Below, in pieces: positions 3,402 through 63,916 of a stretch of 64,000 nucleotides of DNA. Positions within the stretch are counted from its first letter, which is position 1. Each line of letters opens with the position of its first letter. The position numbers and the translations under genes are program-made. The notes beneath the pieces were generated by a model. That model was not told the DNA's origin. It searched no databases and was given only the letters and a program-made list of their open reading frames with translations. Origin of the DNA: Diadophis punctatus similis (lineage: Eukaryota > Chordata > Lepidosauria > Squamata > Dipsadidae); assembly GCA_023053685.1 (NCBI GenBank), contig JALIGW010000016.1, forward strand, positions 11,376,780 to 11,440,779, in the 5' to 3' direction.

Positions 3402-4520
3402 TAACAGAGTTGGAAGGGACCTTGTAGGTCGTCTAGTCCAACCCCCCGCTCAAGCAGGAGTCTCTACACCATTTCGGACAAATGGCAGTCCAATCTCCCT
3501 TTGAACGTCTTAAGTGTTGGAGCTCTCACAACCTCCGCAGGCAAGCTGTTCCACTGGTTGATCGCTCTCACCGTCAGAAAGTTTCTCCTTATTTCCAGGT
3601 TGAATCTCTCCTTGGTCAGTTTCCATCCATTATTCCTTGTCTGGCCTTCTGGTGCCTTGGAAAATAGCCTGACCCCCTCCTCTCTGTGGTAGCCCCTCAA
3701 GTATTGGAACACTGCTATCATGTCTCCCCTGGCCCTTCTCTTTGCTAGACTAGCCATGCCTAGTTCTTGCAACCGCTCTTCGTATGTTATAGTTTCCAGT
3801 CCCCTAATCATCCTGGTTGCTCTCCTCTGCACTTTCTCTAGAGTCTCAACGTCTTTTTTGTGGTGTGGTGACCAAAACTGGATGCAGTATTCTAGGTGTG
3901 GTCTAACTAAGGCTTTATAGAGTGGTATTAGTACCTCCCTAGACCTAGATTGTATCCCTCTATTAATGCAGTTTAGGATAGTATTGGCTTTTTGGGCTGC
4001 GGCTCATGTTTAGCTGGTTGTCTACTAAGACTCCAAGATCCCTCTCACAGTCACTGCTATTGAGTGTGGTTTCACTCAGTTTATATGTATATTTTTGGGT
4101 TTTCTTACCTAAGTGTAGGACTTTACTTTTCTCTGCATTAAATTTCATTTTATTAGATAGGGTCCAGTGTTCAAGTCTGTCAAGATCCATCTGGATCTTG
4201 AGCCTGTCCTCTGGGGTGTTAGCTATTCCTGCCAGCTTAGTATCATCTGCAAATTTGGTTAGTTCCCCTTCTATTACCTCATCTAGGTCATTTATGAAGA
4301 TATTAAAGAGTACTGGGCCTAAGATGGAACCTTGTGGTACCCCACTGCTTACTTCTCTCCATGTAGACTTAGACCCATTGAGGACTACTCGTTGAATACT
4401 GTTAGTCAGCCAGTTGTGAATCCATCTGGTGATGTAGCTGTCTATCCCACTTTTTTGTAGTATCTTGCTGTCTACATGGTTTCTTTGAAGATTCAACAGT
4501 GCTCTTGTTAATTTATATAC
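3402..4520 (-). mobile_element. CR1-type LINE, 5'-truncated, with reverse transcriptase remains
   Basis: The minus strand encodes the RT palm with [18 protein letters not shown] and the catalytic motif FADDTKLAG, then [15 protein letters not shown], then after a frameshift and small deletion near 3990-4010 the tail QRRATRMIRGLETITYEERL. The 3' end carries the family signature (minus-strand GGGACC..CCAACTCTGTTAA). The break means it is not functional. The RT catalyses target-primed reverse transcription in intact members. Confidence 0.88.
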
Positions 4521-4542
4521 AATCATAATAACCTTAAACACT

Positions 4543-4790
4543 AGAGTGTGCGGTGTCCTAGAGGTGGAGCTCTCGCCTCACAATCAGGAGGCTGTGAGTT
4601 CGATCCTAGGTAGAGGCAGATATTTCTCTCTCTGGGCACACTGAGAATATATCTGCTGAATAAAACTCCGCACTGGCGACAGGAAGGGCATCCGGCCATT
4701 AAAACGTTCTGCTAGCTCCATCAGTTGCCCAGACTCCACCCTGCAAGGGATTAAGGGGTCGTTAAATGATAATGATGGTGATAATAACCT
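4543..4790 (+). mobile_element. tRNA-derived SINE with LINE-like tail (GGCATCCGGCC type)
   Basis: The head has an A-box-like CCTAGAGGTGGAGCTC and a B box GAGTTCGATCCTAGG. The body includes GGCGACAGGAAGGGCATCC, followed by a GATAATGATG-type tail. An inverted copy is at 45804. The same head with a different tail occurs at 60425. Confidence 0.75.
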
Positions 4791-12616: not shown

Positions 12617-19829
<7,213 letters not shown>

Positions 19830-19929
19830 GATGAAGATAAAACAGGAGAGGAGTAAAGGACGAGTCTGAAGTTTGGGAGATAATTTTGTGTAATTCTTAT
19901 CAACTTCCAAGCCATAATAAAATAAAAAC
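19830..19929 (-). other. BIRC3: BIRC3 5' UTR segment in the first coding exon (inferred)
   Basis: Upstream of the ATG the first plausible acceptor is TTAACTTTCAG, whose AG is at 19930-19931. That gives a 100-nt UTR segment. The pyrimidine tract is weak, so the boundary is provisional. It contains one arm of a 29-bp inverted repeat (19862-19890). Confidence 0.5.
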
Positions 19930-20534
19930 CTGAAAGTTAACATTACATGCAATGCTTATTTTCTTTTTTATTACTTCACTTTAGTAGTTCCTTTTTTGAC
20001 AGGGCAATTTGTTCTGTTTCACAATCCAGACTTTTTAAAAATATGGTAGTTCCTTTTTCTTCTATAATTACATAAGTCTTACTAAAATGAGGGAGGAGCA
20101 TATTTAAAATAAAGGAAGTTTGAAGAAACAATTAAGGCTTTAATTCTAAGTCTGTATACACGGGGCCTCTATCCCAATGAATCTCAATTCTTTCCAAATA
20201 AAATAATGGAGGAATATTTTTTAAACTTTTATTTCTGAAAGAGCAAGGTCAAAATAATGGATCTAAGAGGTATGGTACTACAGAAAAGCCAACTTAAATC
20301 AAATGCACATCTTTGAATATCTCTCCTTACAATAAGAAACTATTTTTTCTTATCAATATACCATTTCACTCTGTAATACTTCACAAAAAAACTCCTCAAA
20401 AGTTTATCCTGACACATATCAGTGAAATGTGATCAAAAGAATTTTGGTCACCAAAATCTCTTTAACAGGCTTGGACATTTGTCTTTTTTATATTCTCACT
20501 AGTATAGTGAATTTAGTGGCTGTCAGTCAGGCTG

Positions 20535-22787: not shown

Positions 22788-23107
22788 GGTGAAATTCAGC
22801 AGGTTCTGGAGAACTGGTAGTGGAAATTTTGAGTAGTTCGGAGAACCAGCAAATACCACCTCTGGCTGGCCCGAGTGGGGTGGGAATGGGGATTTTGCAG
22901 TATCCTTCCCCTGGAGTGGGGGAGGGAATGGAGATTTTGCAGTATCCTTCCCCTGGAGTGGGGTGGGAATGGAAATTTTGCAGTATACCACCCCTGGAGT
23001 GGGGTGGGAATGGGGAATTTGCAATATCTGCCTGCCACACCCACCCTGCCACGCCTACCAAGCCACACCTACAGAACCAGTAGGGAAAATTTTTGAATTT
23101 CACCTGA
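22788..23107. mobile_element. hAT-like element with an internal minisatellite
   Basis: Terminal words GGTGAAATTCAGCAGG and GAATTTCACCTG are inverted to each other; no target duplication was found. The interior has about four units of some 45 bp around TTTTGCAGTATCCTTCCCCT. Related to 26229 and 27818, in the opposite orientation. The overlapping open frames here come from the minisatellite. Confidence 0.65.
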
Positions 23108-27817: not shown

Positions 27818-28302
27818 TAGTGGTGGGATTCAATTTTTTTTACTACCAATTCTGTGGGTGTGGCTTGGTGGGCGTGGCAGGGGATGGATACTGTAAAATT
27901 TCCATTCCCACCCCACTCCAGGGGAAGGATACTGCAAAATCTCCATTCCCTCCCCACTCCTGGGGGAAGGATACTGCAAAATCCCCATTTCCTCCCACTC
28001 CAGGGGAAGGTTACTGCAAAATCTCCATTCCCTCCCCACTCCAGGGGAAGGTTACTGCAAAATCCCCATTTCTTCCCGATCAGCTGGGATCCAGGAGGCA
28101 GAGAATAGATGGGGGCGGGGCCAGTCAGAAGTGGTATTTATTGGTTCTACGAACTACTCAAAACTTCCACTACTGGTTCTACGAACTACTCAAAACTTCC
28201 ACTACTGGTTCTACGAACTACTCAAAACTTCCACTACTGGTTCTAGGAACTACTCAGAATTTCCGCTACCGGTTCTCCAGAACCTGCTGAAACCCACCTC
28301 TG
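27818..28302. mobile_element. hAT element carrying two minisatellites
   Basis: Flanked by the 8-bp duplication ATCTTCAC (27810-27817 and 28303-28310). The first array (about 27895-28075) repeats a roughly 40-bp unit with GGATACTGCAAAATCTCC; the second (about 28140-28275) repeats a 32-bp unit with TGGTTCTACGAACTACTCAA. The long open frames through it are repeat artefacts. Confidence 0.85.
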
Positions 28303-36444: not shown

Positions 36445-37030
36445 AGACCATGGGCCTCAAACGAAGGAAATTAATTGCTGATGGGGGGGGGAAAAAGATT
36501 GATTGGGGGGGATGACTAATGGACTTCCCATGGCAGAAGAAATCAACCATGAAGGCAGATTTTCATCATTGCGTTCCTTTCTGCTTTCACTAAATGGGCT
36601 TAACCTTGCCCAAAGGAGAGAAGATGAAAAACGAAGTCTACAGAATTTCCTAGAGATTTTCCAAGACTTCGTTTCAAGTGTGAGCAGGCGACAGAAACAG
36701 GTGCGACTGCTATAAGGAGGGTAAATTTCATATTGTAACCAAGAACTGAAGGTGAGGGGTTTTTCCCCATAACTCATATAAAAACGGAGTCAGGGTTTCA
36801 ACCACCTTGACACCCCCAGCTCCCCATGGATGTTCCAGACACATTTATATATTATAGCAGTTTTGCCTCAGCAGATTAATCATTTGGGTGAAGGAAGAAC
36901 TCCATAATTGCAACACTTCCTCAATCTGGTGTCTTTGGGACCTGCTGGACTAAATGGCCCATAATCCTCAGCCAGAGTCATACATACATACATACATACA
37001 TACACACACACACATATATATGTAACACAT
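36445..37030. other. No recognised gene; simple repeats at the right
   Basis: Ends in a CATA and CA repeat (36982-37022). The open frames at 36457-36777 are on opposite strands and resemble no family. Confidence 0.4.
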
Positions 37031-37221
37031 TTTTTTGCTGATAATGAAAATAAAGGGAGACTAGTATAGATCTATTTCAAGCTATTTAGCTCTCATCAGC
37101 TAGCCATACCCTTACTGGGATTCGAACCTGGGCAGCCTGCCTGTATAGGCAGTACCTTTAACCTCCAAGCCACAGGCTCTCCTCCTATATCAGCTTGTAC
37201 CAGGGAAGGGTTATGTTTTTT
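37031..37221 (-). mobile_element. Hammerhead-bearing tRNA-like repeat, copy A
   Basis: Minus-strand order: tRNA-like head with A-box-like TGGCTTGGAGGTTAAAGG and B box GGTTCGAATCC, then a hammerhead fold (37053-37113), then the tail TTATTTTCATTATCAGCAAA. It is flanked by TATATATG on the left and by a long TA array on the right. Same family as 37429, 53089 and 62686. Confidence 0.8.
37053..37113 (-). ncRNA. Hammerhead ribozyme fold, copy A
   Basis: Minus-strand core CUGAUGA, stem II GAGCU/AGCUU with loop AAAU, then GAAA, then the palindrome AUAGAUCUAU as stem III and A as residue 17. Stem I is GGCUAG with CUAGUC (six pairs, one G-U), extended past an internal loop by AAGGG with CCCUU. This is a type I arrangement; all core residues match. 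Confidence 0.82.
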
Positions 37222-37541
<320 letters not shown>

Positions 37542-37958
37542 TATATATATATATATTTTCAAATCCCAGAATTCTTGGAGTTGAAGTCCAAATAGCTTAA
37601 AGTTGCTGAATTTGAGAAATACTGTCTGTGGACATTTCCTGTTTCTATCACTGCCTGACAGAACTGGCAAACCTGAGCCGTCTTTTCATTTTTCAAAGAT
37701 TAGGAGGAAGCACAATGAATTTTTCCGAGTTCTTCTTATGGTCATGGAAGAGGAATTTCCAAATTAATTCAGAGTTTGGGAGACTTCCCTGTTTGGAGAC
37801 TTATTTGGAATTGTTTTGCATAGAAGAGAACCGTTCGGGAAGAGCCCTGTATAAATGCTTTCTTTGGGATCCTGAATTCGTTCCAAGAATTACAGTTCCC
37901 AGCAACTCTGGGCAAAATTCATTGCACAGTCATCAGTAAGATGCAGAAATAAATAGTA

Positions 37959-53091: not shown

Positions 53092-53397
53092 AACATTTAA
53101 TCTCTCTCCCCTGGTTCAGTTGATAGGGAGGAGAACTTGTGGCCTAGAGGTTAAAGCAACTGCCTAACAGGCAAGCAGCCCAAATTTGAATCCCAGAAGG
53201 GTATGGCTAGCTGATGACAGCTAAATAGCTTGAAATAGATCTATACTAGTCTCCCTTTATTTCTTTATCAGTAAAATGTAAATTTTAAATAGTTTGTCGT
53301 GAAAGCAACTGTCTGAATGGCCCCTGGAGTGGGGCTGAAAGGCTAAAGGAAGCAGTACGCTCCCTCCCATATTTGGGTATACCAGGTGATCTGGAAA
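53089..53397 (+). mobile_element. Hammerhead-bearing tRNA-like repeat, copy C
   Basis: Order: AAAAACATTTAATC, tRNA-like head (TGGCCTAGAGGTTAAAGC; B box eroded to TTTGAATCCC), hammerhead, tail, then the start of a further unit (GGGGCTGAAAGGC..CCATATTTGGGTATACCAGG) matching 62905-63000 in inverse. It therefore spans a unit boundary, like the dimer at 62686. Confidence 0.78.
53197..53257 (+). ncRNA. Hammerhead ribozyme fold, copy C
   Basis: CUGAUGA at 53211-53217, stem II CAGCU/AGCUU in which the closing pair is lost (C against U), GAAA, AUAGAUCUAU, stem I GGCUAG with CUAGUC, outer AAGGG/CCCUU. The lost closing pair probably weakens activity. Confidence 0.72.
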
Positions 53398-55010: not shown

Positions 55011-55097
55011 AAATAGCCACCCAGAAGGTAGTAGTTGGTCTACTTCACATTGGCTGTAATGTCCATCCCTAAAAGATAAGACATGGACTAATAAATA

Positions 55098-56226
55098 AAG
55101 TGGTTTACTTGGACTTCAGTAAGGCATTTGACAAAGTAGATCATAACCTACTACTAGATAAAGTAGAAAAATGTGGGTTAGACAGCATCACCACCAGATG
55201 GATTCGAAATTGGCTAACCAACCGCACTCAACGTGTAGTGCTCAATGGAACTGCATCTACATGGAGGGAAGTATGCAGTGGAGTACCCCAAGGCTCTGTT
55301 TTAGGCCCAGTACTCTTCAACATCTTCATCAATGACTTGGACGAGGGGATAGATGGGGAACTCATCAAATTTGCAGATGACACCAAACTGGCAGGAATAG
55401 CCAACTCTCCAGAAGATAGGCTCAAGATACAGAAGGATCTTGACAGACTTGAACATTGGGCGCTATCAAACAAAATGAAATTCAATGGTGAAAAAAGTAA
55501 GGTTCTACATATGGCAAGAAAAACAAAATGCACAGGTACAGTATATGTGGTACCTTGCTCAACAGCAGTAACTGTGAGAGGGATCTTGGAGTCCTAGTGG
55601 ACAACCATTTAAATATGAGCCAGCAGTGTGCAGCAGCTGCCAAAAAAGCCAACACAGTTCTAGGCTGCATTAACAGAGGGATAGAATCAAGATCACGTGA
55701 AGTGTTAATACCACTTTATAATGCCTTGGTAAGGCCACACTTGGAATACTGCATACAGTTTTGGTCGCCACGATGTAAAAAGGATGTTGAGACTCTAGAA
55801 AGAGTGCAGAGAAGAGCAACAAAAATGATTAGGGGACTGGAGGCTAAAACATATGAAGAACGGTTACAGGAACTGGGTATGTCTAGTTTAATGAAAAGAA
55901 GGACCAGGGGTGACATGATAGCAGTGTTCCAATATCTCAGGGGCCGCCACAAAGAAGAGGGAGTCAAACTTTTCTCCAAGGCACCTGAGGGTAGAACAAG
56001 AAGCAATGGGTGGAAACTAATCAAGGAGAGAAGCAACTTAGAACTAAGGAGAAATTTCCTGACGGTTAGAACAATTAATCAGTGGAACAGCTTGCCTCCA
56101 GAAGTTGTGAATGCTCCAACACTAGACATTTTTAAGAAGATGTTGGATAACCATCTGTCTGAAGTAGTGTAGGGTTTCCTGCGTAAGCAGGGGGTTGGAC
56201 TAGAAGACCTCCAAGGTCCCTTCCAA
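55098..56226 (+). mobile_element. CR1-type LINE, 5'-truncated, nearly intact RT second half
   Basis: Encodes RT motif A ([15 protein letters not shown]), [20 protein letters not shown], the catalytic FADDTKLAG, then after one frameshift near 55530-55560 the uninterrupted tail [16 protein letters not shown] to HLSEVV-stop at 56172. The 3' UTR ends CCAAGGTCCCTTCCAACTCT and passes into an ATT array. The youngest-looking LINE in the window, but without its 5' half. Confidence 0.92.
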
Positions 56227-61220: not shown

Positions 61221-62685
61221 TGTTCACATGAGCATATTTACAATGCTATGCCAGAAATTGGACTTTAATTCCTGTTTCCAGCAAAACTGGAATGGGTTCA
61301 CTTAAAGTGTGGCATTCACTAAACAACCATGACTTTTGCTCAACAACCACGGTGTTTACTTTATGATCCCCTTTCACTTAATGACCACTGTGAAAAAGTC
61401 ATAAAATCGTGTCGCAACACATGGTGATCTGCTTTACAAGCATCACGACTTATGATTGTTGTAGGAGATGACCAGGCTGAGCCTGAGGGAGGGGTTAAAT
61501 GTGTCATCAGTCATGAGTCCCTTTGCACACACAATCTAAGATCTAAGTCCCGCCCCCCTTGAATTCCTTGTCTATTACCAAATTGCTTTGACTGTTAGTA
61601 GTTCAGATTCTCTTAGAGAGCTTAAGCTTGCAATAAATCTTTATACCCATTTGAATTGCCTGGATCTCCTGATTTCTCTGGCACTGACAACTGTAATTGC
61701 CAGTCTCAATTGAAGCTGTTACTGGAGGACTGTCTATATATGGTGGGTGGGTGGGAGATAGATGGGTTAAGGGGCAGAAAAAGTAGGCGCAGTCCTATTC
61801 AACAATCTTGCCTCTTATTTTAGGGGGGGGAAACCAAAACCAAAAGAAGAACCTTATAATTTCACAGTCAATCTATGTTTTTGATGTTGAATTTAGCAAT
61901 ATTCTTATAGAGCTGGCAAAATTATGCTGAGTGGTTATATGCTGGTACAATCCCTGCTGCCACTTTTATTTCTGCCTTTATTTAATCAGTCGATCAACCA
62001 ATCAATTTATACAGCTGCCATTCTAGCAGGTCACTCAGAGTAACATGCAGAAACTGTACTTCTGTAGAATAATTCTGCTATTAGGTGGGATAATTTATTG
62101 AAGTGTAATTTATTTTTATACACAGAGCATGCTGATTTATACTTACTGGGAGGGGGGGGGGAAATAGGGTTGGTTGCCCTTACAGTTATCAAAGTAGTCA
62201 TTCAATAGTCTCACCCTTTGGGATTCTTCAACAATCAACTCATTGTCGCATCCTGATATAAATTGGTTTGCGGCTTTGCAGAGAATAAGTTCCCACAAGG
62301 GAAGCGACTTGAGAGCCGAAAGTGTAGTAAGCTGTGATTGTTATTTCTTGGGTGTGGTACCAAATGATGTTTTGCAGGTGTACATGGCTTGGAGCTTCTC
62401 CATTGCTTGCTTCAGATACACATTGCATTTGTAGAGTTGTCACTCAGGTATAACACTCATAAGCCAAATTAGCTTCCGATGCTGTCATTCTGTTTTATTT
62501 ATTTTCATGCCCTGCCTTTATTATTTTAATTACCAGTTATAACTTGTATTTTATTGCAATTGTAGTGTGATTTTATACACACACACACACAGAGGGTGTG
62601 AAAAGACGGGTGGCAAACAAATTTAATAAATAAGTATATATATATACTTATATACTATATATATATACTACATACATATATATGT
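61221..62685. other. Mostly unrecognised
   Basis: A decayed CAGGTAGTCC-family piece lies at about 61300-61460 (CACTTAATGACCACTGTG). The rest shows no supported gene; the right end is a TA-rich repeat (62635-62685). Confidence 0.4.
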
Positions 62686-62712
62686 AGGATTTTTTGCTGA
62701 TAAATGAAAATA

Positions 62713-62775
62713 AAGGGAGACTATTATAGATCTATTTCGAGCTTATTTTGCTCTCGTCAGATAGCCATACCCCTT
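62713..62775 (-). ncRNA. Hammerhead ribozyme fold, copy D
   Basis: CUGACGA, stem II GAGC/GCUC with loop AAAAUAA, GAAA, stem III palindrome AUAGAUCUAU, residue 17 A, stem I GGCUAU with AUAGUC, outer AAGGG/CCCUU. All canonical core residues match. Predicted cleavage falls between plus positions 62725 and 62724. Confidence 0.87.
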
Positions 62776-63043
62776 ACTGGGATTTGAACCCGGGCCGGCT
62801 GCCTTGCAGTGCAGCACCTTAACCATTAGGCCATAGGTTCTGTTCCCAATCAGCTCTTTCACCAGGAAAGGGTTATATATGTTTTTATGTCGTGTTTATC
62901 CTGGTGTACCCAAATATGGGAGAGAAAGCATCACAGCTTCCATTTTTGCCTTTCAGCCCCTCATTGGGACCGTCCAGGCAGTTTTTTACATAGCCGACAC
63001 ACTAATCTATATGTGTAGGATTTTTTGCTGATAAATGAAAATA

Positions 63044-63106
63044 AAGGGAGACTATTATAGATCTATTTCGAGCTTATTTTGCTCTCGTCAGATAGCCATA
63101 CCCCTT
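63044..63106 (-). ncRNA. Hammerhead ribozyme fold, copy E
   Basis: Identical core and stems to copy D, offset by 331 bp. Predicted cleavage falls between 63056 and 63055, so cleavage at both sites would release a 331-nt RNA (62725-63055). Confidence 0.87.
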
Positions 63107-63243
63107 ACTGGGATTTGAACCCGGGCCGGTTGCCTTGCAGTGCAGCACCTTAACCATTAGGCCATAGGTTCTGTTCCCAATCAGCTCTTTCACCAGGAAA
63201 GGGTTATATATGTTTTTATGTCGTGTTTATCCTGGTGTACCCA

Positions 63244-63916
63244 TATATATATATATATAAGGCAGCAAATATACATCCTTCTCCTCCTCTTTTCTCCACA
63301 AAAACAACCCTATGAGGTGGGTTGAGCTAAGAGAGAGTGATTGGCCCAAAGTCACCCAAGTCAGCTTTTATGCCAAAGGCAAGACTAGTCCCTCGGGAGT
63401 AGGGCGGCATAGAAGAACCAATAATAAATAAATAAATAAATAAACTCACCATCTCCTGGCTTCTAGCCTGGTGCCTTAATCACTAGACCAAATTGGCTCT
63501 CCAGTTTTATTCTCATCATGCACCGTAGTTTTGCCTTATTACTATTTTCCCCTCTTTTTCTTGATGCCAAACTCTTTATTATTTCACTAGTTCCTCTCTT
63601 GTTCCACTTCATCCTACTTGTTACAGGGCCTTTTTAGGACTGTGAGAGATTCTGGAATAAAATATCCCCTGTCTCCTTTTTGAATTCAAAGTCAATGCAA
63701 AACAAATGCAATTTGTTTTTCTTCCATCCATTTTGTCCCCTGAAATGAGCTCCCCCAGTAAGCAGGAGCAAACAGGGAAACTCCAAATATTGAGATACTG
63801 AGATGAAACGCCTTGACATTTCAGATACAGTGGTACCTCAGTACTCTCATCATTAATTACTTCCAGGAGGCACGACGAGTACTAAAAATGACAAGTACCA
63901 AACAAACCACATGACC
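63244..63916. other. Mostly unrecognised
   Basis: GGGAGTAGGGCGGCATAGAA followed by an AATA run (63399-63445) is the tail of the L2-like LINE seen at 34345. No gene seen in the remainder. Confidence 0.45.

Follow-up and report, generated by a model that had tools for sequence, protein, structure and literature searches.

The window, by which we mean the whole 64,000-nucleotide stretch of Diadophis punctatus similis DNA that was analysed, carries on its minus strand, at 62683-63242, an inserted array of about 560 bp made of 1.7 head-to-tail units with a period of 331. The extent of the array is from a repeat search and mapping, and the repeat search gave copies at 62677-62917 and 63008-63248 that are 331 apart and 99% identical. 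The original prediction was of a tandem dimer of 331-bp units; the head-to-tail order, the spacing and the identity stand, but with 1.7 units there is no full dimer. Each unit runs from a tRNA-like head through a hammerhead to a tail. In the 5' (upstream) unit the head is at 63111-63164 (A box 63154-63164, B box 63111-63121) and the hammerhead, the first in order of transcription, is at 63050-63096 with its predicted cut at 63056/63055. In the second unit the head is at 62780-62833 (A box 62823-62833, B box 62780-62790) and the hammerhead at 62719-62765, with the predicted cut at 62725/62724. Double self-cleavage at these two predicted sites would be expected to give a cut-to-cut monomer of 331 nt (62725-63055). 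Beyond the last predicted cut there is a 42-nt tail (62683-62724) that stops at a 3' end, ...AAAAAATCCTACA, common to other arrays. The insertion is bordered by TA-rich microsatellites, at 62635-62682 on its 3' side and 63243-63260 on its 5' side. Directly adjoining the array, at 63263-63500 on the same strand, is a tRNA SINE-like stretch, which we take to be of the Sauria/Squam1 type.

There are other copies of the family in the window. One at 37015-37227 on the minus strand is diverged, with stem I GGCUAG/CUAGUC in which the end pair is compensated, and across a (TA)n tract from it is a 5'-truncated copy on the plus strand at 37435-37547. The copy at 53100-53395, also on the plus strand, is a diverged member of a second subfamily; it is a circular permutation of about one unit and its stem II is short of one pair.

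With regard to the hammerhead, a core in each unit, coming right after a tRNA-like part that has A and B boxes, had been foreseen from the sequence, and both cores do match a strict type I descriptor. Two cores in other family copies match it as well (37059-37104 on the minus strand and 37457-37503 on the plus strand), and it has no match in 100 dinucleotide shuffles of the window. GGCUAU/AUAGUC forms stem I, together with the outer helix AAGGGG/CCCUUU; GAGC/GCUC forms stem II, and stem III is the palindrome AUAGAUCUAU. The original prediction looked to Rfam for confirmation of the fold, and here it did not hold up: the Hammerhead_1 model gave 17.4 bits for the array (E 0.47 in 901 bases), below the gathering score of 34, and the fold is not accepted by Rfam alone. 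Five further motif-bearing loci were searched at E <= 1 and a hammerhead was listed for one of them only (L014, 21.4 bits). The lowest-energy fold of a single hammerhead keeps stems I and II and lacks stem III, with another 4-bp helix closing part of the core, and its stability is matched by 8 of 200 shuffles (z -1.8); two other stretches that were folded, one of them cut within the motif, formed no hammerhead and were not unusually stable. The calculated energy of stem III is unfavourable as a hairpin (+3.2 kcal/mol) as against -9.8 as a duplex, and the unconstrained fold of the homodimer is a double hammerhead with a 10-bp stem III, at -37.6 kcal/mol compared to twice -14.7 for the single copies. 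Folded as a circle, the window unit, taken with a few flank letters near position 42-46, is predicted to be more stable than all of 200 shuffles (z -3.9). With Rfam and the single-copy fold against it, the case for a hammerhead is based on the descriptor and on conservation among other copies.

That conservation is extensive, and the expectation that other genomic copies would keep the hammerhead pairing was borne out. In an alignment of 21 hammerheads (18 distinct) from the two subfamilies, only one row being from the young one, 96.4% of the 331 cells form standard pairs, a level reached by none of 500 shuffles, and when the partner is slid by up to 3 columns the figure is 37-56%. A count on 8 rows agrees. 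Compensatory change is seen at the stem I end pair, which is G-C in 13 rows and U-A in 5, and once at an outer pair of stem I, where G-C has become A-U. These are the 2 pairs with two-sided change, a number equalled by 114 of 500 shuffles, and the covariation is thus small in extent. The CUGANGA motif varies in the 21 rows at N only, which is the tolerant position 7; one row is without part of stem II and one has an altered base after GAA. In the case of the young subfamily, CUGANGA and GAAA are intact in 94 of 104 hammerheads and changed in the other 10, so that some copies should be dead. Comparison of the young and old consensus sequences, the old one being short of a full unit, gives 54 of 61 positions identical in the hammerhead block and, by BLAST alignment, 163 of 229 outside it.

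The tRNA-like head scores 27.2 and 23.5 bits in the array with the Rfam tRNA model, below the gathering score of 29, and at most 25.3 bits in the five further loci searched at E <= 1; ARAGORN found no tRNA. The A and B boxes of the array units are 32 nt apart, and an A and B pair so spaced arises once per 50 shuffled windows. Correctly spaced boxes are present in 55 of 56 complete young units, which come from 34 arrays, and in the old subfamily the A box is present in 14 of 15 and the B box in 11 of 15. Going by these boxes, transcription of the element by Pol III is plausible. Young units also have a T4 run 15 nt past the cut, exactly one in 55 of the 56, that could end a Pol III transcript ahead of the tail; we considered it as a conserved terminator and dropped the idea as the old consensus is without T4.

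A search of the 1.78-Gb Diadophis genome with the array unit gave 112 matches from the 40 candidates scored of 1880, which were merged by hand into 40 loci, one being that in the window; the other 39 were taken with their flanks. With the diverged copy at 53100-53395 as query there were 71 matches from 40 scored of 3044 candidates, from which 12 stretches were taken; the two candidate lists may overlap. Tandem copies elsewhere in the genome had been anticipated, and the family is indeed dispersed and often tandem, the 39 further loci having arrays of 318-2538 nt. The family consensus unit is 330, and the consensus sequences of the two subfamilies, which we call young and old, are 75% identical over 290 columns. 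Sampling of 200 kb at three places gave 2 copies, one of them a short piece, which would put family size, very roughly, at the order of ten thousand. GC content is 43.9% for the young and 45.1% for the old consensus, retrozymes being characterised by low GC, under 45-50%. The unit has no protein-coding region, the longest stop-free run in the tandem consensus being 85 aa, and so nothing of the reverse transcriptase or GIY-YIG coding that a Penelope-like element (PLE) would have.

The ends of the arrays are informative. Numbering unit positions from the predicted cut, the 3' end falls at positions 42-53 in 41 of 43 mapped stretches, which corresponds to ...AAAAAATCCTACA plus a few letters of TA-rich flank. 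The tail, which reads ...TTATCAGCAAAAAATCCTACACA, thus stops about 42 nt beyond the predicted cut, usually at a TA-rich microsatellite, and such microsatellites make up most of the flanks, where they would hide any target site duplication; those of retrozymes, when present, are longer than 4 bp. TACAT follows AAAAAATCC in 31 of 40 rows, a TA run lies within 14 nt after the 3' end in 31 of 40, and there is a TA run at the 5' junction in 23 of 40; in each of these counts the L016, L040 and L047 rows read an inner unit, and the second array of L029 is without an exact anchor. The two exceptions to the fixed 3' end are in L016 and L040. In L016 (501-1325) the array has its 3' end at another TA-rich spot of the unit, near position 182, as though copying had begun at that point. 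At two loci (L045 1250-1356 and L062 6579-6700) two copies have their fixed 3' ends face-to-face across a short microsatellite.

The 5' ends by contrast vary. Our set of 41 arrays excludes stretches under 300 nt or with less than 90% identity (the second array of L014, the plus-strand piece of L016, the first pieces of L030 and L034, and short inverted tails), and selection with a full-unit query favours insertions of at least one unit, so that short ones are under-sampled. Array lengths have a median of 509 nt, and 22 of the 41 arrays reach the 497 nt that we estimate as the minimum for a promoter and two cuts. The distribution of 5' ends round the unit is even (chi-square p 0.52); full copies of a tRNA SINE would have them where Pol III starts, a little before the A box, and no such gathering is seen. 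Within 5 nt of the predicted cut there are none of the 41, against 1.2 expected; pieces at unit position 281-283 had suggested arrays that start at the hammerhead cut, and were rejected as match edges. Lengths and ends together look like the outcome of one start and random stops.

There is also a record of repeated copying within arrays. Of the non-consensus letters in first copies, 40 of 90 are found again in the last copy of their own array, and the sharing of such private letters with another array has a mean of 6.8% and a maximum of 17.8% in 1000 draws. The median difference between complete units is 1 for the 44 pairs within arrays, of which L013 supplies 21, and 6 for the 1496 pairs from different arrays. 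Reverse transcription round one small circular RNA fits the fixed 3' ends, the variable 5' ends and the shared private letters. The repeated parts hold 126 variant states that are not common to all copies compared to 40 that are, and the 126 fit what later mutation would leave. Finally, in 3 or 4 of the 39 loci inverted copies are joined 5' to 5'. L019, L029 and L046 are pairs of this sort in which each outer end is the fixed 3' site, lying in TA-rich DNA, and L016 is another except that one end is at a different TA-rich spot; such pairs look as if both DNA strands had been primed.

From these data we think it probable that the element is a metazoan-type retrozyme, non-coding and non-autonomous and with a head derived from a tRNA, and that it is copied round a circle by whatever enzyme. 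Tandem copies would be transcribed, probably by Pol III from the A and B boxes and possibly also by read-through. Neighbouring hammerheads would then release 330-nt monomers, the palindromic stem III favouring pairing of two ribozymes, and a host RNA ligase would close the monomers into circles. A borrowed reverse transcriptase, primed in TA-rich DNA, would begin copying about 42 nt 3' of the ligated cut, always at this one internal site, go round the circle at least once and come to a halt at random, leaving a fixed 3' end and variable 5' ends.

As to the enzyme, a PLE is our guess as the most likely source. We favour it on account of PAc, a PLE of Anolis whose protein has a preference for AT-rich DNA, cuts both strands and extends them, and always begins at the same internal site (PMC11167929). 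A search for GIY-YIG domains gave 2 matches among the 150 scored of 685 candidates, and no intact PLE. One match resembles a host gene, which we take to be SLX1, and the other is a degraded endonuclease piece (L081 514-630) that we would liken to Penelope-like elements. The 40 longest open frames listed for 264 kb include LINE-like pieces, and we recognised no PLE among them.

It is necessary to consider that the same element, with the same cycle, is moved by a LINE, for instance one that targets TA-rich repeats, a possibility that differs from PLE copying in the enzyme only. Target-primed reverse transcription in general leaves a fixed 3' end and 5' truncation, our one PLE-like find is degraded, and the window itself has, at 55073-56169 and 3467-4577, fragmented frames that we would liken to LINE reverse transcriptase. 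However the pairs joined 5' to 5' (L019, L029, L046 and in part L016) fit extension of both strands, which has been described for PAc as a difference from R2 and L1 (PMC11167929), and we regard a LINE as a possible but rather doubtful mover. The full reading, of a vertebrate hybrid of SINE and retrozyme that has its own Pol III transcription, is cut by itself and closed into a 330-nt circle, and is copied by a PLE with both ends of a TA-rich break primed at one fixed start, is one that we put forward only tentatively.

In the case of the template, a long linear multimer, that is an uncut tandem transcript of a genomic array with little use of the ribozyme, would likewise yield fixed 3' and variable 5' ends, and PAc is reported to insert unprocessed RNA in vitro (PMC11167929). 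However long source arrays are needed, and at least 29 of the 41 arrays in our sample are shorter than 2.5 units. Also the shared private letters need a source array that is already uniform; given such a source the linear multimer would leave the same array pattern as a circle. We think this unlikely. A further reading is a plain tRNA SINE, with an incidental hammerhead, whose copies were turned into local satellites by unequal crossing-over, a process described for squamate SINEs (PMC10702118). It would account for the tRNA-like head, the tandem arrays and the unshared variant states, but we think it very improbable. Local duplication gives neither arrays of 1.2-1.6 units nor, from locus to locus, a single 3' end combined with an even spread of 5' ends; the copies do not start where Pol III would, as those of a SINE should; and the hammerhead pairing is kept across subfamilies.

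With regard to known systems, the closest in general character to an element copied round a circle are the metazoan non-LTR retrozymes, described as dispersed arrays of tandem repeats of about 170-400 bp (330 and 350 in axolotl) with low GC and a type I hammerhead whose stem III is weak and which in vertebrates works better as a dimer; amphibian retrozymes cleave well only as dimers (PMC7229834), and the dimer fold predicted here for the hammerhead is reminiscent of this. The Diadophis element differs from them in its tRNA-like head with A and B boxes. The combination of hammerhead and tRNA-like head had been thought unusual, but it has a precedent in SMalpha and Sjalpha of schistosomes, described as SINE-like elements of about 335 bp in which a type I hammerhead is accompanied by the A and B boxes of Pol III (PMC8490949, PMC2576457). 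The likeness is one of plan only and the host is different.

PAc resembles the Diadophis element in having a hammerhead near its start, an internal reverse transcription start 3' of the cut, an AT-rich target, tandem copies and extension of both strands. Unlike it, PAc codes for its own enzyme, and its start is 111-118 nt into the ORF, by subtraction about 85-92 nt past the cut compared to 42 here (PMC11167929); by eye the two have no sequence kinship. The squamate SINE-derived satellites are also tandem tRNA-related repeats, and amphibian Pol III tandem repeats are listed in the same paper, but the satellite units fall short of the parent SINE in length, and in the parts of that account covered here a hammerhead is not mentioned (PMC10702118). 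The amniote intronic hammerheads are type I and occur in reptiles, but are conserved motifs in gene introns and not dispersed tandem repeats (PMC6155905).

Retrozymes and SMalpha being already known, what is new here is a retrozyme with a conserved tRNA-type head and an insertion anatomy that can be read. In the literature searched, which took in few subscription papers, we came across no description of a retrozyme from squamates, nor of one from any vertebrate that has a tRNA head. Two accounts of animal retrozymes have left open both their transcription and the mobilising enzyme, for which PLEs have been suggested (PMC7229834, PMC7761336). Both could be put to the test in a single genome with this family, given its A and B boxes kept in two subfamilies, its precise start of reverse transcription and the signs in its arrays that one template was copied repeatedly. 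If the hybrid reading is true, the genome records rolling-circle reverse transcription and names the missing mobiliser of retrozymes.

Elsewhere in the window two arrays of one 41-bp minisatellite lie in opposite orientation about 5 kb apart, at 22873-23028 and 27878-28077. There is also a frame of 338 aa on the minus strand at 18942-19955, with a stretch that we would liken to an IAP/BIR domain.
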